From assembly GCF_001650635.1 (NCBI RefSeq), contig NZ_LWQU01000163.1, positions 62,001 to 126,000 on the forward strand: a DNA stretch of 64,000 bases. Direction: 5' to 3'. Both the position numbers and the translations under genes were made by a program. Source of the DNA: Magnetospirillum moscoviense. GTDB lineage: Bacteria; Pseudomonadota; Alphaproteobacteria; Rhodospirillales; Magnetospirillaceae. Numbering within the stretch: the first letter of the stretch is position 1; the number at the start of each line of letters is the position of its first letter. This document shows, piece after piece, positions 21,830 to 30,551 of the stretch. Under the pieces are notes generated by a model. The model was not told the origin of the DNA, did not search any database, and saw only the letters and a program-made list of their open reading frames with translations.

Positions 21830-22414
21830 TTACGGGGACAATTCCCGCGTTATGTCGCAGGGTTCCTTGCCCTCACTGTCATCAGGGAAAAATGAATTCT
21901 GGCTGTTTGTCACAATTATGTTGTTAATTAGTATGCGCTGTATTATGCCGTCTTGTACGAAGGCGTTAAGTAGTGTGCATCTAGAGCTTAAATCAATTAC
22001 AGTGGTATTCATTTTTATGGTTTGGTGTACCGAGCCAATTTTTCTTAAGAAACCTTCTGCGGTGCGTTCGTCGTGATGAATGGCATCGTGTAGAAATATT
22101 GCTGTTACGACTATTGGTCCATTGTCTTTTGTGTAAAACTCTGCAAAATGACCGTCACCGTTATCGAATGTATGAAAAATTCCAGTTCCAATTAAACTTG
22201 TTCCGATCTCAGTGTGTTTTTTGTAATTTTTCAAAATTAGTTGCTTCATGTTGTTGGTGTAATTGTTGACAATGTCTTCGAGCGCGGCGTCATCACATGT
22301 TGAATATTCAGGCATGTGTGCGTTTGGCGTTTCGGTCCAATGGCATTCATCAGCGTAGCATCCACTGGCGATCATGATTGCCCCATATGCGATGATAAAT
22401 GTGCGGCGCATCAT
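21830..22414 (-). CDS. Hypothetical lipoprotein, AT-richer than its surroundings
   Basis: A 194-residue protein I do not recognise. The N-terminus MMRRTFIIAYGAIMIASGC has a lipoprotein signal (IASGC). The mature part is polar, rich in Asn, Ile, Thr and Lys, with HDAIHHDE near residue 115 and several scattered Cys. Codon use is clearly more AT-rich than in all neighbours, which suggests recent acquisition. No clear Shine-Dalgarno is seen. It lies alone between the menA/BASS run and hypX, on the same strand as the hydrogenase operon but downstream of it. Confidence 0.6.
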   Translation of the reverse strand: MMRRTFIIAYGAIMIASGCYADECHWTETPNAHMPEYSTCDDAALEDIVNNYTNNMKQLILKNYKKHTEIGTSLIGTGIFHTFDNGDGHFAEFYTKDNGPIVVTAIFLHDAIHHDERTAEGFLRKIGSVHQTIKMNTTVIDLSSRCTLLNAFVQDGIIQRILINNIIVTNSQNSFFPDDSEGKEPCDITRELSP

Positions 22415-22505
22415 GGCGGTGCTGTGTCCTTGATTGCTCAAACCGGCCAATTCCAACAGATTGCCAGGCTCGTCAGGTGAAGGGGGCTGTTGGTTCTCCA
22501 GTGCT

Positions 22506-24122
22506 TCAACCCTTGCCCCGATGCCTTGCTAAATAAAGCGGTGTTCGCGACTTCGGCACTTTCCGGATGAAATTGTAACGCGCCACGTGGTAGCTGGGGT
22601 CGAAGCCGTAGAAGTTCAGCTTCATGCGTTCCAGCTCCTCGGCGCGATAGGTTTCCAGCGGCTTTTCCGCCTCGTCGGCCAGGCGGGCCAGGCCCTTGGC
22701 GGCGATGCGGGCGTCGATGGCCGGGTCGGCGGCCAAAGCGTGGGCGCGGGCCTCGGCCTCGGCGCGGAAGCTGGATGGGCAGGTGCCGAAACTATCGTCG
22801 ATCAGGCCCAGGCGCTGGGCCTCGGCCGTTCCCACCGGCAGGCGCGCCTGGGTCACCTGGCGGGCGGCTTCCTCGCCGCAGCGTTTGGGTAGCAGATAGG
22901 TCCAGTATTCCGAGCCGTACAGATTGCCCATGCCCTTGTAATGGGGGTTCAACACCACGCCGGAGCGCGCCCACACCAGATCGGCGGCCAGCGCCATGAA
23001 CACGCCGCCGGCGCCGCCATTGCCTTGCATCGCCGCCACCGTCAGGTGGCTGGTGCAGGTGATCACGGCACGGCACAGATCGTTCATGGCGTTGATGTTG
23101 GCCCAGGATTCATCGGCCGGGCTGGCCGCCGCCTCGATGGTCGACAGGTGGATGCCGTTCGACCAGAAATCCGGCCCGCCCATCAGGGCGATCACCTTGG
23201 TCGGCCGCTTGGCCGCATCATGGAAGGCCGCTTCCAGCCGGCGGCATTGATCGGTGCTCATGGCGCCGTTGTGGAAGGGAAAGTGCAGGAAGCCGACCGC
23301 GCCCTTCTCGTCATACCAGATGTCGTGATGGCCGGGCATGGTGGGCAGCGAGGCGGCGATCTCGGGCAGCACCTGGGCCGCCGGCAGCTTCAAGCCGTTG
23401 GCACCAAGATGGCCGATCCACACCGCGCCGTCGGTGGTGGCCCGGGCCAATTGGTGGCCGCGCCGGGCGATCCAGGTGCCAGGCGCACCTTCCAATCCTT
23501 CCGATGGGTGGGCGTCGTGCAGGTAAAGTCCGTCGTCCAGAACGCCGGGCGTGCCGTCGGATGCGCGGATCTTGCGCAAGATGGTGGCGCTGTCGTCCTT
23601 GGCCCAAGCGATGGCGCGGTCCTTCTGGCGCATCTGGGGCTTCCACCACGACCGGCGCGGCAATTCGGGGACGGGGCTGTGGTCCACCGCTTCCAGCACC
23701 GCCGACACCGCCGCCTCGGTGATCTCGTTTCGGTAGATCGAGGATTTGGTGGCTTCGCGCATGGTGAAGGTGCGGTGCGCCCAGACCGGGCCGGCATCCA
23801 TTTCCGACACCGCCTGCAGCACGGTCACGCCCCAGCTCTGCTCGCCTTCCAGGATGGCCCAGTCCAGGGCCGAGGGGCCGCGATCGCCGATCGGGCCGGG
23901 ATGGACCACCAGGCAGGTATGGTTTCGCCATACCTGCTCGGGGATGGCCCGCTTCAGGAAGGGCGCGATGATCAGATCGGGCCGGGCCAGCTCGACCGCC
24001 TGGGTGGTGACGGCATCGTTGACGTCGAATTCCAGGCTGACGGCGTGGCCGCGTTGGGTCAGTTCGACCCACAGGCGCTGGGTCAGCGAATTGAAGGAAT
24101 GGGCCAGAAGCAGGATGCGCAT
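22506..24122 (-). CDS. hypX: HypX (HoxX), hydrogenase CO-ligand maturation enzyme
   Basis: A 538-residue fusion. Residues 1-170 form a formyltransferase-like domain (with LVVHPGPIGDRGPSALDWAI), and residues 270-480 an enoyl-CoA hydratase/isomerase-like domain. In Ralstonia and Aquifex work HypX makes the CO ligand of the NiFe site from formyl-tetrahydrofolate through formyl-CoA, needed for full activity in air. It is the last gene of the hydrogenase operon, 1 nt after hypE, the same place as in the Ralstonia hypA1B1F1CDEX operon. The protein appears complete. Confidence 0.93.
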   Translation of the reverse strand: MRILLLAHSFNSLTQRLWVELTQRGHAVSLEFDVNDAVTTQAVELARPDLIIAPFLKRAIPEQVWRNHTCLVVHPGPIGDRGPSALDWAILEGEQSWGVTVLQAVSEMDAGPVWAHRTFTMREATKSSIYRNEITEAAVSAVLEAVDHSPVPELPRRSWWKPQMRQKDRAIAWAKDDSATILRKIRASDGTPGVLDDGLYLHDAHPSEGLEGAPGTWIARRGHQLARATTDGAVWIGHLGANGLKLPAAQVLPEIAASLPTMPGHHDIWYDEKGAVGFLHFPFHNGAMSTDQCRRLEAAFHDAAKRPTKVIALMGGPDFWSNGIHLSTIEAAASPADESWANINAMNDLCRAVITCTSHLTVAAMQGNGGAGGVFMALAADLVWARSGVVLNPHYKGMGNLYGSEYWTYLLPKRCGEEAARQVTQARLPVGTAEAQRLGLIDDSFGTCPSSFRAEAEARAHALAADPAIDARIAAKGLARLADEAEKPLETYRAEELERMKLNFYGFDPSYHVARYNFIRKVPKSRTPLYLARHRGKG

Positions 24123-24123
24123 G

Positions 24124-25173
24124 TCAGCAGATCCGGGGCAATTGTTCGCCGGCCAGCCAATCGACCACCCGGGTTCCGCCCATCGCGGTCTTCATTCGGA
24201 CGAAATGGTGGGGATCGGCCTCGCAGGTGCCGATGCGGGCGGCATCCGTTCCCAGCGGGTGGGCGCGCATCACCGCCAGCAGCCGGTCGGCGTCGGCGGC
24301 ATCGCAGATGCAGATCAGCTTGCCCTCGTTGGCGACGTAAAGCGGGTCCAGGCCCAGAAGCTCGCAGGCGCCGCGCACCGCGTCCTTGACCGGTACGGCG
24401 CGCTCGTCGATGACCATGCCGGTGGCCGATTGGGCGGCGATCTCGTTCAAGGTGGCGGCCAGGCCGCCGCGGGTCGGGTCGCGCAATACCCGGATGCCGG
24501 GGCAGTCGGCGACCATGGCGGCGACCAGGGTGTGCAGTGCGGCCGAATCCGACAAGATGGCGCTTTCGAAGCCAAGGGATTCTCGCTGGCTCATCACCGC
24601 GACGCCGTGATCGCCCATGGTGCCCGAGATCAGGATGGCGTCGCCCGGGCGGGCGCGGTCGCCGGAAATCCGAACGCCCGGCGGCACGAAGCCGATGCCG
24701 GCGGTGGTGATGAAGATGCCGTCGCCCTTGCCCTTTTCCACCACCTTGGTGTCGCCGGTGACCACCGGCACGCCGGCGGCCTTCGAGGCGGCGGCCATGC
24801 TGTCGACGATGCGCTTCAAGTCGGCCAGCGGGAAGCCTTCCTCGATGATGAAGCCGGCCGACAGCGAATGCGGCACGGCGCCGGCCATGGCGACGTCGTT
24901 GACGGTGCCGTGCACCGCCAGGCTGCCGATGTCGCCGCCGGGAAAGAAGAGCGGGCTGATGACATAGCCGTCGGTGCTCATCACCATGCGGCCCTGGGGC
25001 ACCACGAATTCTGCCTGGTCGTTGCCCTGGTTCAAGGCCTCGTTGTCGAAGGCGGCGACGAACAATTCATCGACCAGTTGGGCCATGGCGCGGCCGCCGC
25101 CGCCATGGGTCAGATCGATGCGGCCGTGGGTAATGTCCAGCGGGCGGGGATGGGTGCGGCGGGGCAGGGTCAT
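24124..25173 (-). CDS. hypE: HypE, carbamoyl dehydratase in cyanide-ligand synthesis
   Basis: A 349-residue PurM/AIR-synthase-like enzyme. With HypF it turns the carbamoylated C-terminal Cys into a thiocyanate for the Fe(CN)2CO site. The conserved C-terminus PRIC is present (final Cys 349). Other landmarks are the N-terminal HGGGG loop (near residue 24), the TGDTKVV ATP-binding loop and DPTRGGLAATLNE. ATG at 25173 begins MTLPRRTHPRPLD. The stop of the DUF2442 gene lies 1 nt upstream, so translation is probably coupled. Confidence 0.95.
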   Translation of the reverse strand: MTLPRRTHPRPLDITHGRIDLTHGGGGRAMAQLVDELFVAAFDNEALNQGNDQAEFVVPQGRMVMSTDGYVISPLFFPGGDIGSLAVHGTVNDVAMAGAVPHSLSAGFIIEEGFPLADLKRIVDSMAAASKAAGVPVVTGDTKVVEKGKGDGIFITTAGIGFVPPGVRISGDRARPGDAILISGTMGDHGVAVMSQRESLGFESAILSDSAALHTLVAAMVADCPGIRVLRDPTRGGLAATLNEIAAQSATGMVIDERAVPVKDAVRGACELLGLDPLYVANEGKLICICDAADADRLLAVMRAHPLGTDAARIGTCEADPHHFVRMKTAMGGTRVVDWLAGEQLPRIC

Positions 25174-25174
25174 G

Positions 25175-25438
25175 CTAGTTCTGTCCGGGAAGCGGGGCGC
25201 CGGTGACGCGGGAATACAGCACGTAGGGATCGATGTCGGCACCGCCGGGCCAGCAGATGGTGCCGATCTCGGGGTTGACGGCGACCTTGGCGAACTCGCT
25301 TGGATCCTTGAGGGGGGCGAACACCCCCTTGAACGACAGGACAGAGGCGAAATCCACCTCGCCCACGGTTCCGTCGCCAAAGGTCAGGCGCAAGGTGAAC
25401 TCTCCCGTCCGGGTCACGGCGACAACGTCTCGGTCCAT
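25175..25438 (-). CDS. DUF2442 family small protein
   Basis: An 87-residue protein with the DUF2442 layout: short beta-strands around TLRLTFGDGTVGEVDF and a C-terminal region INP-like VNPEIGTICWPGGADIDPYVLY. Family members are usually paired with DUF4160 proteins, as here, and such pairs have been suggested to be toxin-antitoxin-like, which is not proven. It sits inside the hyp operon, 3 nt after DUF4160 and 1 nt before hypE. It is absent from standard hyp operons. Confidence 0.85.
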   Translation of the reverse strand: MDRDVVAVTRTGEFTLRLTFGDGTVGEVDFASVLSFKGVFAPLKDPSEFAKVAVNPEIGTICWPGGADIDPYVLYSRVTGAPLPGQN

Positions 25439-25441
25439 GCC

Positions 25442-25702
25442 TTACTCCAGCGGTTCGATCTTCTTCAAGGGCAGGTCGTTGCGCGCCAGGTTCCAATCCT
25501 CGGCCAGTTGCGCGCGATGGGCCGCCGCCCATTCTATCACAAGACCCAGGGCGCGAGGCGGCAAACGGCCGCTCAGGCAGGCCAGCGAATCTATCGCGAT
25601 CACCGCTTCGTGGTCGCCGTAGCGGACGTGGAAATGCGGCGGCGCGTGATCGTCGTAATACATCGCGATGATCATGCCCAGGAACCTGCTGATCTCAGGC
25701 AT
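25442..25702 (-). CDS. DUF4160 family small protein
   Basis: An 86-residue protein. It matches the DUF4160 pattern: MPEISRFLGMIIAMYYDDH, PPHFHVRYGDHEAVI, LPPRALGLVIEWA and LKKIEPL. Function is unknown; the family is often encoded beside DUF2442 and regarded as a possible toxin-antitoxin partner. ATG at 25702 lies inside the last codons of hypD (8-nt overlap), so it is translated with the hydrogenase maturation genes. A longer upstream frame is a shadow of hypD. Confidence 0.85.
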   Translation of the reverse strand: MPEISRFLGMIIAMYYDDHAPPHFHVRYGDHEAVIAIDSLACLSGRLPPRALGLVIEWAAAHRAQLAEDWNLARNDLPLKKIEPLE

Positions 25703-26819
25703 CGCGGAAACGTCCATAGGTCCAATGGGCGGCGCAGGCGCCCTCGGCCGAGACCATGCAGCTGCCCATGGGGTTCTCGGGCGTGCACACGGTGCCGAAC
25801 AGCTTGCAGTCGGTGGGCTTCTTGACGCCGCGCAAGATGGCGCCGCATTCGCAGGCCTTGTTGTCGGCGACGCTGTCGGCCGGCACGTCCCAGTGGCGCT
25901 CGGCATCGAAGGCGGCGAAGGCGTCCTTGATGCGAAGGCCGGAATAGGGCACCAGCCCCAGGCCGCGCCATTCGAAACTTTTGCGCAACTCGAACATCTC
26001 GGCCACCAGGGCCTTGGCCTTGGGGTTGCCGTCGCGGGTGACGGCGCGGGCGAACTCGTTTTCCACCTCGAAGCGGCCCTGGTTGATCTGGGCCACCAGC
26101 ATGCGCACCGCCTGCAGCACGTCCAACGGCTCGAAGCCGGCGATCACCACCGGACGCTGATATTCCTCGGCGAAATATTCGTAAGGGGCCGATCCGATGA
26201 TGGTCGAAACATGGGCCGGGCCGATGAAGGCGTCCAACTGCACCGTGCCCAGCTCGCGCACCTCGGGGCTGTCCAGGATCTGGGTGATGGCCGAGGGAGT
26301 CAGAACGTGGTTGCAGAACACGAAGAAATTGGAAAGCCCCAGGGCGGCGGCCTGCTTGACGGCGACCGCCGTCGGCGGCGTGGTGGTCTCGAAGCCGATG
26401 GCGAAGAACACCACGCTTCGATCGGGATTGTCGGCGGCCAGCTTGACGGCGTCCAGGGTCGAATAGACCATGCGGATGTCCGCCCCCTCGGCCTTGACCT
26501 TCAACAGCGACAGGCGCTTCGAGCCCGGCACGCGGAGCATGTCGCCATAGGTGCACAAGATCACGCCCGGTTGGCGGGCCAGCCAGATGGCGGCATCGAT
26601 GCGGCCGACGGGGAGCACGCAGACCGGGCAGCCGGGGCCGTGGATCATGCGGACATTGGCCGGCAGCAGGTCTTCCAGGCCATAGCGGCTGATGGCGTGG
26701 GTGTGGCCGCCGCAGAATTCCATGATGTGGTAGGTGCGAGCCGGATCGGCCTCGGCGCGGATGGCGGCCGCCAGGCGTCCTGCTGCGTCGCCGTCCCTGA
26801 ACTCGTCGATATATTTCAT
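25695..26819 (-). CDS. hypD: HypD, Fe(CN)2CO scaffold protein
   Basis: A 374-residue iron-sulfur protein that with HypC carries the Fe atom while CN and CO ligands are attached. Conserved Cys motifs are MEFCGGHTHAI near residue 34 and HGPGCPVCVLP near 62-72, and the [4Fe-4S] cysteines lie in the C-terminal third (KACECG, KLFGTVCTPENPMGSCMVS). ATG at 26819 overlaps the hypC stop (ATGA). Confidence 0.96.
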   Translation of the reverse strand: MKYIDEFRDGDAAGRLAAAIRAEADPARTYHIMEFCGGHTHAISRYGLEDLLPANVRMIHGPGCPVCVLPVGRIDAAIWLARQPGVILCTYGDMLRVPGSKRLSLLKVKAEGADIRMVYSTLDAVKLAADNPDRSVVFFAIGFETTTPPTAVAVKQAAALGLSNFFVFCNHVLTPSAITQILDSPEVRELGTVQLDAFIGPAHVSTIIGSAPYEYFAEEYQRPVVIAGFEPLDVLQAVRMLVAQINQGRFEVENEFARAVTRDGNPKAKALVAEMFELRKSFEWRGLGLVPYSGLRIKDAFAAFDAERHWDVPADSVADNKACECGAILRGVKKPTDCKLFGTVCTPENPMGSCMVSAEGACAAHWTYGRFRDA

Positions 26820-27046
26820 GTAAGGGCGCCCGTTTCCTGCATCTCGGCCCATAGCGCCAGGGTCTTTTCGGCCTCCGCGGGATCGACCTTGGTCAGGGCA
26901 TAGCCGACATGGACGATGACATAGTCGCCAACCGCCACGCCATCGACCAGGGCCAGCGAAACCGCCTTGGTGACGCCGCCCAGATCGACCTTGGCCTGGT
27001 CGCCGTCCAGCAATTCGGTCACCAGCGAGGGAAGGGCCAGACACAT
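26816..27046 (-). CDS. hypC: HypC, hydrogenase maturation chaperone
   Basis: A 76-residue HypC/HupF-family protein. It begins MCLALPS; the Cys at position 2 binds the iron precursor and contacts HypD and the large subunit. The middle GDYVIVHVGYALTKVD is typical. ATG at 27046 is required by the Cys-2 rule; upstream in-frame codons are rejected. It overlaps hypD by 4 nt. A second family member (hupF) lies at 30551-30784. Confidence 0.95.
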   Translation of the reverse strand: MCLALPSLVTELLDGDQAKVDLGGVTKAVSLALVDGVAVGDYVIVHVGYALTKVDPAEAEKTLALWAEMQETGALT

Positions 27047-27050
27047 GCGC

Positions 27051-28130
27051 TTACATCTCCCGAAGGGCGGCGATCCACGCCTGGCCCAAAGACAAACCGG
27101 CATCGCCCGGCGACGCCTGGGTGGCGGTCAACGGGACAAGGCCGCGCCGTTCCAACTCGGGCACCAGCCCGGCGGTCAGGACGCGGTTGAAGAAACAGCC
27201 GCCGCCCAGGGCAATGGTGCGACAGCCGGTTGATTCGGCCCCCCACACGCACCAATCGGCCAGGCCGGCGATCAAGGTGCCATGGAACAGGTTGGCACCG
27301 TCCCTGGGCTCGGGGCAAGAGGCCAGCAGGCTCATCAAGGGCGCGAAATCCAGCACGCCGCGTTCCAGAATCCACCCCGAGGCCAGGATGGCCGGGTGAT
27401 CGACCAGGGCTTCCAGCGCCATCGGCGCCTGGCCCTCGAATTCGGCGACCGGGTGGACGCCCAGCAGGCCGCAGGCGGCATCGAACAGCCGCCCGGCCGA
27501 CGAGGTGATGGGCGCGTTCAGCCCCTTGTCCAGCACCATCCCCAGCCGGCTGGCGGCGGGAATGCCCTTCCAGCGCGAGGCGATTTCGTCGGCGCGACCC
27601 AGCTTGTGCAGCCAGGCGGCGGCCATGCGCCAGGGTTCGCGGGCGGCCTTGTCGCCGCCGGGTTGGGCGATGTGGACCAGATGGCCCAGGCGGCGGAAAT
27701 CGGCCCCTTCGCAATAAAGCAGCTCGCCGCCCCAGGCCTGGTTTTCCGGCCCCAGCCCGAAGCCGTCCAGCGACAGGCCCAGGATGGGGGCTGCGTGGCC
27801 GTGCTCGGCGGCGATGGCGGCGGCGTGGGCGTGGTGGTGTTGCACCGCCAGGGCCGGCAGGTCCAGCGCCTGGGCGAAGCGGGTGGAATGGAAGTCGGGA
27901 TGCAGATCGTGGGCGACGCGGACCGGCTTGACGCCCAGTTCGCGCACCATCGCCTCGGCCGAATGCTCGAAGAGGGCGATCGAGTCGGGCGTCCCCAGAT
28001 CGCCATGGACCGGCGACAGATAGGCGCGGTCCCCCTTGGTGACGCAAACGGTGTTTTTCAGGAAGGCGCCCACCGCCAGCACCGACGGCCCGGAGCGGGG
28101 CAGGGCGATGGTGGCGGCGACGGTGGTCAA
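27051..28130 (-). CDS. hypF: Short HypF, C-terminal carbamoyltransferase part only
   Basis: A 359-residue protein corresponding only to the Kae1-like C-terminal half of HypF, with the metal-binding [13 protein letters not shown] near residue 113 and GGGCFFN near 306. The acylphosphatase, zinc-finger and YrdC-like domains that make normal HypF about 750 residues long are missing, and no remnant is seen upstream because hypB abuts it. The start is a TTG at 28130 overlapping the hypB stop (TTGA). Ralstonia eutropha HypF1 is, as I recall, similarly short. It may work alone or need a second, full-length HypF elsewhere. Confidence 0.9.
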
Positions 28131-29041
28131 GGCCTGGTCCCGGCCTTGGCGGCGGCTTGCTGGCCCTGGCTAATCCAGTCCAGCCACTGATCCATGCCCT
28201 GGCCATTCTTGGCCGACACCTGCAAAACGGCGATGTTGGGGTTGACCCTGCGGGCATAGGCGATGGCGGCATCAACATCGAAATCAAGATGCGGCAGCAG
28301 GTCGGTCTTGGTCAGGATCATCAGGTTGGCGGCGGCGAACATGTCGGGATACTTGATGGGCTTATCCTCGCCCTCGGTCACCGACAAGATGGCGACCTTG
28401 TGGGCCTCGCCCAGATCAAAGGCGGCCGGGCAGACCAGATTGCCGACATTTTCGATGAACAGCACCGAGCGGCTGGCCGGGTCCAGCCGGATCAGCGCCT
28501 TGGCCACCATGTCGGCATCCAGGTGACAGCCCTTGCCGGTGTTGACCTGCACCGCCGGCGCCCCGGTGGCGCGGATGCGGTCGGCGTCGTTGCTGGTCTG
28601 CTGATCGCCCTCGATCACCGCGACCGGGAAGCGGCCGGCCAGGGCCTCGATGGTCTTGCAAAGCAGCGTGGTCTTGCCCGAGCCGGGGCTGGAGACCAGG
28701 TTCAAGGCGAAGATGCCGCGATTGGTCAGCCAGGTGCGGTTGGCCCCGGCCAGGTCGTTGTTGCGGCCCAGGATATCCTGCTCGATCTGGATGATGCGGC
28801 TTTGGCTTAAGCCCGGCACATGCACGCCGGCGATGCCGGTGCCGAAATGCAGGTCGTCGCCATGATGGTGGTGATGGTGGTCATGATCGTGGTCGTGATC
28901 ATGGTCGTGGTGATGGTGGTCATGATCGTGGTCATGATCGTGATGGTGATCATGGGGATGGGAGTGATGGTGGTCGTGACCATGATGATGGTCGTGGGAA
29001 TGTTCCAGCTTCGACTCGCCGCAGCCGCACACCGTGCACAT
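28127..29041 (-). CDS. hypB: HypB, nickel-insertion GTPase with long His-rich tract
   Basis: A 304-residue GTPase that with HypA inserts nickel into the large subunit. It begins MCTVCGCG (the N-terminal CxxCGC nickel site). Residues 14-60 are a His/Asp tract with 31 His in 47 positions, giving nickel storage ability as in rhizobial HypB. The P-loop is [11 protein letters not shown] near residue 110, and [15 protein letters not shown] carries the G-domain metal site. ATG at 29041 overlaps the hypA stop. Confidence 0.96.
28862..29002. repeat. Low-complexity (CAT/CAC/GAC) tract coding the His-rich segment of HypB
   Basis: Read on the plus strand this is a run of ATGGTGGT / CATGATCGTGG units. 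It encodes residues 14-60 of HypB (mostly His and Asp). Such a tract is prone to slippage and length change between strains. Confidence 0.85.
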
Positions 29042-29385
29042 CACTCGACCTCCAATTCCTTGATCCGCATGTCGGCGCCCTGGGTGACGCTGAGCGCGAA
29101 GCCGCCGCATTCGGGGCAGCCATCGACCCGGGACGCCAGTTTGACACTCTTGGCGCAATCCAGACAAAAGCCTTCGCCGGGGACCCGGACGATTTCCAAC
29201 CTGGCCCCGGCCGCGACCGAAGACCCCCGGGTGACGGCGTCGAAGCAGAACAGCATCGAATCGGGATCGACCTGGGAAAGTTCGCCGATTTCTAGCCACA
29301 CCGTCTTGACTTTGGTGAAGTTGTGGGCCGCCGCCTGGTCCTCGAGGATGCGGACAACGCCTTCGGTCAGGCTCATCTCGTGCAT
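29041..29385 (-). CDS. hypA: HypA, nickel metallochaperone
   Basis: A 114-residue HypA. The nickel-binding N-terminus MHEMSL (His 2) is intact, and the zinc site has CLDC near residue 74 and CPEC near 91. It hands nickel to the hydrogenase large subunit with HypB. ATG at 29385 is fixed by the MHEMSL start and overlaps the hupK stop by 1 nt. Confidence 0.95.
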
Positions 29386-30551
29386 CAGGGGGCCTCCACG
29401 CTGACCTGGCAGGTCACGCACGGGTCCAGGGCGGCGACCAAAAGCCCCGCCCGGGCGGCCAGGTCGCCATCGGCCCGGATGCCGGTCAGGCCGCGGGCCA
29501 GCGGGCCTGCGGGGTGGAAGTTCCATTCGGTCGGAGCCAGGATGCGATAAAGGCTCACGCGGCCCTCCGCCAGATGAACGCGATGCGCCAGCAATCCCCG
29601 CGCCGCCTGGGTGGCGGCCAGGCCCTGGCCCGAGCCCAACCGGGCAGCCCCGGCGGCTTCGGCTTTCAAATCCTGCACCAGCGATGCCATTTCATGCAAG
29701 GCCGCCGCGACATCGACCAGCCGGGCGGTCAGCCGGGCCAGCAGGCCGGCACCTTCGTGCCGCAGGATCGCCGCCACCAGCGGATGGGTATGGTTGCGGG
29801 CCAGCGCGCCGGTTTCCAGGACCTGGCCCCGATAATCGGGGCGCGCCAGATAAAGTCCGTCCGGGTCGCCATCCAGCCGCTCGGCCAGATCGGGCGGGCC
29901 GTTCTCGGGCATGGCCAGCAAATCGGCGGCGCCAAACGACGCCTGCGCCTCGCTGACCACCTGGGCCAGCATGCGGCCGATGGCGGTGGGGGCCTGGGTC
30001 ATCCAGGCCCGGAAGGTGTTGCGGTCCTTCAGCAGCCCGGTGACCTGGCCGCCCAGGCAATGGGCGAAGGCGGCCTGGGCCTCGGCGATGTCGGCCAACA
30101 GGTGCGAGATGTCGGGGGCCAGACGGCCGCCGCCAAGGGTCAGCCAGTCGCCATCGGGATAAAGATGCTGCCTGACCGTCGCCAAGGTCCGCTTGAACTT
30201 GCGGGCGGTCTCCATGTCGGGGCGTTCGCCCATCAGCATCGGCCAGTCGCGGGCCAGCGCCATGCCGTGCTCGGCGACGGCCTCGGCGGAAACCAGGATG
30301 CGCCGGGCCGCGCGGGTGGCCGGCGAGGCGAACAGGCCGCCGGCCTGTTCCATCGCTTCCAGGCCGGTCAGGGCCTGGGCGGTGCCGCACAGGGCGAACA
30401 GGGTCGGCAGGATGGTCAGCACCTCGGCCGGGCTTTTGCCGGCGAACATGGCTGCGGCCTTGACCAGCCGGGTCGAGCCGATCTCGACGGCGCGCACCGT
30501 CCCATGCCCGACTTTCAGCGCCACGGTGATGCCGGCCTCGGGAAAGCCCAT
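29385..30551 (-). CDS. hupK: HupK-like hydrogenase maturation protein
   Basis: A 388-residue protein distantly related to NiFe hydrogenase large subunits. It retains a C-terminal DPCVTCQV like the large-subunit DPCxxC, but the N-terminal RxCxxC is reduced to LFALCGTA. HupK/HoxV proteins are thought to act as scaffold for the iron centre during assembly. It overlaps hupF (ATGA). The reading frame is intact and the composition normal, so it is not a decaying large subunit. Confidence 0.85.

Follow-up and report, generated by a model that had tools for sequence, protein, structure and literature searches.

A predicted DUF4160/DUF2442 toxin-antitoxin pair between hypD and hypE in Magnetospirillum and related genera: probable single insertion and repeated loss

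Two-gene modules with a DUF4160 toxin and a DUF2442 antitoxin are the closest described systems to the locus analysed here, and both the toxicity of the first protein and its neutralisation by the second are known from such relatives (available portions of PMC8198452 and PMC12724237). In DhiTA of Dickeya dadantii 3937, the DUF4160 toxin gene comes first and the DUF2442 antitoxin gene second, as in the present locus; DhiT inhibits growth, DhiTA together does not, and the pair has its own repressed promoter. In E. coli, only ccdAB2 raised plasmid maintenance and dhiTA did not, which counts against addiction (accessible sections of PMC8198452). The Persistence Enhancing Module of Thermus thermophilus (pTthSNM1-1d/pTthSNM3-3d) has the same families in the same order, and likewise a short antitoxin. 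This module raised plasmid persistence; deletion of its first ORF (DUF4160) still gave Thermus transformants, whereas deletion of the second gave none. In E. coli, plasmids from which one or the other ORF was missing remained stable, again counting against addiction (excerpts of PMC12724237). As for hydrogenase operons, Sll1225-Ssl2420 is likewise a toxin-antitoxin pair, located in the hoxEFUYH operon of Synechocystis 6803 and proposed to stabilise it (PMC4963859, in its available part). Concerning the hyp operons of Magnetospirillum, no report of a DUF4160/DUF2442 pair was found among the open-access matches listed.

The window, a stretch of 64,000 nucleotides from Magnetospirillum moscoviense, carries a hyp operon in which such a pair lies between hypD and hypE (Table 1).

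Table 1. Position and annotation of the hyp operon genes and of the embedded pair in the window
Feature	Position	Strand	Evidence and remarks
Formyltransferase-crotonase fusion, 3' of hypE	22506..24122	-	PF00551, PF02911, PF00378
hypE	24124..25173	-	NCBIfam TIGR02124, 454.4 bits
DUF2442 gene, predicted antitoxin, 87 aa	25175..25438	-	PF10387, 57.6 bits (cut-off 23.9)
DUF4160 gene, predicted toxin, 86 aa	25442..25702	-	PF13711, 80.2 bits (cut-off 23); ATG at 25702-25700
GGAG in the toxin's final codons (CTG GAG TAA)	25445..25448	-	6 nt upstream of the antitoxin ATG; predicted antitoxin Shine-Dalgarno
hypD/toxin overlap, 8 nt, ATGCCTGA	25695..25702	-	Toxin start codon and hypD stop codon
hypD	25695..26819	-	PF01924, 517.5 bits; TIGR00075; C-terminal end ...GRFRDA*; stop TGA within toxin start
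hypC	26816..27103	-	PF01455, 89.8 bits
hypF, C-terminal carbamoyltransferase part only	27051..28130	-	PF22521, PF17788; TIGR00143 match at 381-740 of 741
hypB	28127..29038	-	TIGR00073, 288 bits
hypA	29041..29430	-	PF01155, 118.8 bits

The fusion gene downstream of hypE is presumably hypX/hoxX. Just 3' of the hyp operon, an ORF of 208 aa (21830-22456, minus strand) has, by eye, a signal-like start, and its G+C content is 43% vs. 66% for the window.

The DUF4160 gene overlaps hypD by 8 nt, a gap of 3 nt separates it from the DUF2442 gene, and hypE follows after a single nucleotide. The first-pass annotation had given this layout exactly to the base; its assignment of the two genes to the DUF4160 and DUF2442 families was confirmed by the Pfam matches, and the tight coupling that it saw on both sides is supported by these distances. 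Each family has one match in the genome. That standard operons have nothing at this place, as the same annotation put it, is true of most relatives considered here; it does not extend to some cyanobacteria, in which other extra ORFs sit between hypD and hypE (PMC3858816, as far as its available text goes). While the Thermus module is plasmid-borne and lies ~100 bp 3' of a replication gene, the window pair is chromosomal, lying within a maturation operon with ends that overlap. The Synechocystis pair differs as well, being located among structural hox genes of a cyanobacterium, with no overlapping coupling described in the available part of PMC4963859; the comparison made here is one of position.

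Judged by its sequence, the pair is a member of the toxin-antitoxin superfamily: a toxin with the DUF4160 domain (PF13711) and an antitoxin with the DUF2442 domain (PF10387) are encoded by adjacent genes on the same strand, 3 nt apart. Besides both Pfam families, the likeness to the Thermus plasmid module supports the toxin-antitoxin-like nature originally suggested, with 63% identity for the toxin (86 of 86 residues) and 48% for the antitoxin (over 75 residues). Toxin residues H19, H23, H25, W58 and W70 are invariant in 76 aligned sequences. An AlphaFold model of the DUF4160 protein reached a pLDDT of 95.4, and no clear relative was found when it was compared with solved structures. The window antitoxin is a single domain without the C-terminal part present in DhiA and NE0471, which makes standard autorepression doubtful.

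DhiTA proper, as defined by the NCBIfam equivalogs, was rejected as the identity of the pair, since both cut-offs were missed and the antitoxin is not full-length: the toxin scored 93 bits with NF048015 (cut-off 100) and the antitoxin 25.1 bits with NF048016 (cut-off 200), covering positions 4-67 of the 160 in the DhiA model.

Eighty relatives were kept out of 508 confirmed, and a DUF2442 partner stands beside DUF4160 in all 80 (73 toxin-first and 7 antitoxin-first). The reversed order (L145, L146, L157, L161, L163, L166 and L169) is confined to one clade of seven; in five of these loci, the antitoxin stop and the toxin start share the same 8-nt overlap, ATGCCTGA. Related toxins were also found on plasmids, in 46 of 72,556 records. 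A cluster of five DUF4160-type matches, one with an internal stop, was observed within ~3.4 kb of an alphaproteobacterial contig (G576:C67 126-3478; L184 and L196-L199); it may represent several such pairs in tandem.

Within the genus, hypD is present in 13 of 13 genomes and DUF4160 in four, two of which (G000 and G010) have it in the hyp gap. At the order level, hypD was found in 123 and DUF4160 in 68 of 317 genomes; DUF4160 comes immediately after hypD in eight genomes, all of one family, the listed places being compared by eye. The hypD region was taken from 49 genomes of this family and, after G120 (no hypE in the stretch) had been left out, 48 junctions with both hypD and hypE were compared. 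The hypD-DUF4160-DUF2442-hypE order, which the first-pass annotation had proposed to search for, was found in eight of them (G000, G010, G115, G138, G143, G144, G146 and G148, the toxin of G144 being broken). DUF2442 alone occurs in three (G007, G122 and G137), and neither gene in 37, a class based on single-sequence searches from which badly decayed remnants could escape. An accessory hyp gene would be conserved with hypD and hypE, and the pair is not: it varies among genomes that have the operon.

Concerning more distant genomes, HypD was found in 7 of 125 further loci of relatives (L033-L059 and L102-L199), many of which have short flanks; the seven come from six genomes, all of this family. 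In a class draw of 385 genomes, 16 contain a sequence matching the embedded toxins with E no higher than 1e-12, and among their loci HypD is present only at the window's own. The pair occurs in genera g1, g4 and g16 and the antitoxin only in g7, the insertion being common to four genera if the antitoxin-only G122 is counted. As a whole, the pair is not a chance event in one strain and is very probably no piece of hydrogenase machinery.

The ATGCCTGA overlap is identical in all eight pair-bearing junctions and is retained in the G137 relic. A midpoint-rooted tree of 88 toxin-antitoxin rows, built by a quick method, unites the 11 embedded copies in a single clade (SH-aLRT 99-100), whereas in the HypD-HypE tree (48 rows) they are dispersed within one clade, requiring at least 10 changes, or 13 losses when a single gain is enforced. 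Because of the shared overlap and the single clade, these data are most simply read as one insertion, followed by repeated loss in which the toxin would have gone first. G148 and G137 are placed near G000 in the toxin-antitoxin tree. A tree restricted to the embedded copies is poorly resolved, so that the junction could conceivably have been replaced horizontally; neither the g16 (p 0.335) nor the g1 (p 0.224) grouping is rejected by AU tests.

Several stages of decay are present. The toxin of G144 has an in-frame stop and that of G146 a replacement of one invariant histidine; G137 has an internal toxin deletion, with the first and last toxin codons kept and the antitoxin intact, and the toxin is gone from G007 and G122, its place in G122 being taken by some 385 nt of unrelated sequence. 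The antitoxin frame is intact in 11 of the 11 junctions with either gene, the toxin being lost or visibly altered in five, and the hypD and hypE frames remain open where the toxin decays in place. For 16 genome pairs picked by us, dN/dS ranged from 0.04 to 0.18 for the toxin (9 pairs) and from 0.07 to 0.28 for the antitoxin (15 pairs), similar to HypD and HypE (0.05-0.26); the G007 antitoxin stands apart at 0.51 vs. G000 (0.26 vs. G115). Purifying selection thus seems to act on both frames. In all 11 genomes, the pair has a lower GC3 than hypD and hypE, which would fit a foreign origin or weak codon selection.

Other DNA was seen in the hypD-hypE gap of nine loci (L097, L029, L072, L073, L074, L069 and L092-L094, i.e. 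G006, G009, G122, G123, G124, G118, G150, G151 and G154), with sizes of about 90-190 nt, and 385 nt in G122; by eye, several of these spacers are rich in hairpins or repeats. The junction therefore seems to take up insertions.

Concerning translation, the GGAG in the toxin tail is present in 47 of 70 toxin-first relatives vs. none of seven antitoxin-first ones (Fisher p 8e-4, relatedness uncorrected), after exclusion of three toxin-first loci that have no toxin of 86 residues (L101, L113 and L147). The Leu85 codon ends in G in 56/70 cases, vs. 103/245 at leucine columns 40, 47, 54 and 66 pooled (Fisher p 1e-8, relatedness likewise uncorrected). These two biases suggest that the ribosome site of the antitoxin is carried by the toxin gene. 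When a Shine-Dalgarno (SD) is called strong at a duplex energy of -4 or lower, the toxin has a strong SD in the hypD tail in seven of eight genomes, that of the window being borderline (-3.9), and no strong SD was found before the antitoxin in G007 and G122. In g16, five pair-less genomes (G133, G139, G142, G145 and G149) have a hypD tail with CTGGAG or TTGGAG (protein DLE) ahead of hypE, and four pair-bearing ones (G138, G143, G144 and G146) have it ahead of the toxin.

In the window, hypE has no strong SD, its duplex energy of -3.2 kcal/mol comparing with a mean of -2.96 at random hypD positions. A strong hypE SD occurs in 0/11 junctions with the pair or the antitoxin vs. 13/21 counted junctions without (2/11 vs. 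14/21 at a threshold of -3.5) and, within g16, in 0/6 vs. 8/8 counted. Of the 37 junctions lacking both genes, the 21 counted are those whose hypE start aligned; the other 16 include g16-labelled G134, G135 and G141. Once relatedness is allowed for, this contrast comes down to four independent pairs, none opposed, and is not significant (sign test p 0.25-0.5). Six pair-less g1 genomes, forming one clade, also have hypE without a strong SD, with a plain ATGA overlap instead. From these sequence comparisons, translation of hypE may depend on the antitoxin frame, which would account for antitoxins being lost later than toxins. The antitoxin SD in the toxin tail and the missing strong hypE SD in genomes with the pair or the antitoxin are new here.

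As for the neighbourhood of the 80 relatives, same-strand ORFs of at least 80 aa within 60 nt were absent in 42, present only upstream in 12, only downstream in 16 and on both sides in 10. Annotation of 19 neighbouring proteins showed that the two-sided loci include three hyp junctions, a cobN/cobO junction, an ATP synthase junction in a Rhodocyclaceae genome (L154 2580-4992; alpha/beta-type and delta/epsilon-type genes, at a beta-type/epsilon-type junction) and type I restriction hsdS/hsdR-type genes in a Rokubacteria genome. The cobN/cobO pair, from Telmatospirillum sp. J64-1 (L108, G132), is of the same subfamily and has the same 8-nt ATGCCTGA overlap with its upstream gene, but belongs to a cobalamin operon and falls outside the hyp-embedded clade. 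The subfamily thus settles inside operons now and then.

Taken together, the locus is a known kind of element with unusual translational wiring. We consider it probable that a type II toxin-antitoxin pair, made of a DUF4160 toxin and a short DUF2442 antitoxin, entered the hypD-hypE junction a single time, in an ancestor of the Magnetospirillum group, and that it has since been passed on with the hyp operon but lost on many occasions, the toxin often going first. Ribosomes finishing hypD would start the toxin at ATGCCTGA, and the antitoxin would start from its own SD in the last toxin codons, so that it would be made at least as fast as the toxin and be in surplus; hypE, which has no strong SD of its own in pair-bearing genomes, would be reached by ribosomes finishing the antitoxin. 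The antitoxin would bind and block the toxin, and loss of the locus would free it. Given that the longer relatives of the antitoxin have a C-terminal part that it lacks, expression would follow the hyp promoter rather than autorepression. The pair would then be a passenger without a part in hydrogenase maturation, held by addiction and, after the death of the toxin, by the dependence of hypE on the antitoxin reading frame. The family, the architecture, the single clade and the decay series can be read from the sequences themselves.

The first-pass annotation had offered two readings, a parasitic pair keeping itself by coupling to a needed operon and a recruitment for hydrogenase maturation or its control. 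The former is supported as regards a passenger, which may keep itself by coupling. The latter, for instance a switch coupling cell growth to hydrogenase assembly, would account for the position shared by g1, g4 and g16 (g7 with the antitoxin only), for the signs of purifying selection on both genes and for reading frames locked to hypD and hypE; it is nevertheless very improbable, as 37 of 48 junctions have neither gene, toxins decay beside intact hypD and hypE, and HypD stands in just 7 of the 125 further loci (six genomes, all of this family, many flanks being short). Pairs of the same subfamily at the cobN/cobO, ATP synthase and hsdS/hsdR junctions and on plasmids point the same way. Operons without the pair in close relatives and pairs at other sites, which the first-pass annotation would have taken as the mark of a chance insertion, do speak against a role in hydrogenase, but the term "chance insertion" does not do justice to an event shared by four genera (G122 counted) whose embedded copies form one clade.

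There are two further explanations. Several insertions independent of one another, or horizontal exchange, at a hypD-hypE hot spot would suit the patchy spread (at least 10 changes, or 13 losses under a single gain), the placement of G148 and G137 near G000 and the other spacers occupying the gap; we regard this as unlikely, given the same 8-nt overlap in 8/8 junctions, the single clade among 88 rows and AU tests that leave the g16 and g1 groupings standing. It is also quite improbable that the antitoxin alone is kept for a purpose, either as a translational adaptor for hypE or as a guard against related plasmid-borne toxins such as those in the 46 plasmid records: its intactness in 11/11 junctions, with the toxin lost or altered in five and no strong SD before hypE in any, would be expected under this explanation, yet the antitoxin is itself missing from 37/48 junctions, and toxin-first decay is also a usual fate of chromosomal toxin-antitoxin pairs (PMC8198452, in the sections available). 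Returning to the single insertion of a passenger pair, a stronger version, which we put forward tentatively, is that the pair took hold of the operon's translation: it would have seized the SD of the hypD tail for its toxin, brought an SD for its antitoxin within the last toxin codons and left hypE, as a translational hostage, readable only by ribosomes completing the antitoxin; the subfamily would be an operon-settling module in general, as at cobN/cobO, ATP synthase beta/epsilon and hsdS/hsdR. If so, killing the toxin is free while damage to the antitoxin frame silences hypE, and the antidote of the parasite has turned into a component of the operon that hosts it.

It has long been asked how selfish pairs manage to persist on chromosomes. 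In the present case, a single insertion is visible at all its stages in close relatives, from the intact pair through the dead toxin and the antitoxin alone to the empty junction, and there is a concrete, testable reason for which the antidote may outlive the poison, since hypE seems to borrow the ribosomes of the antitoxin. The locus also marks DUF4160/DUF2442, a widespread two-gene family, as able to settle inside core operons.
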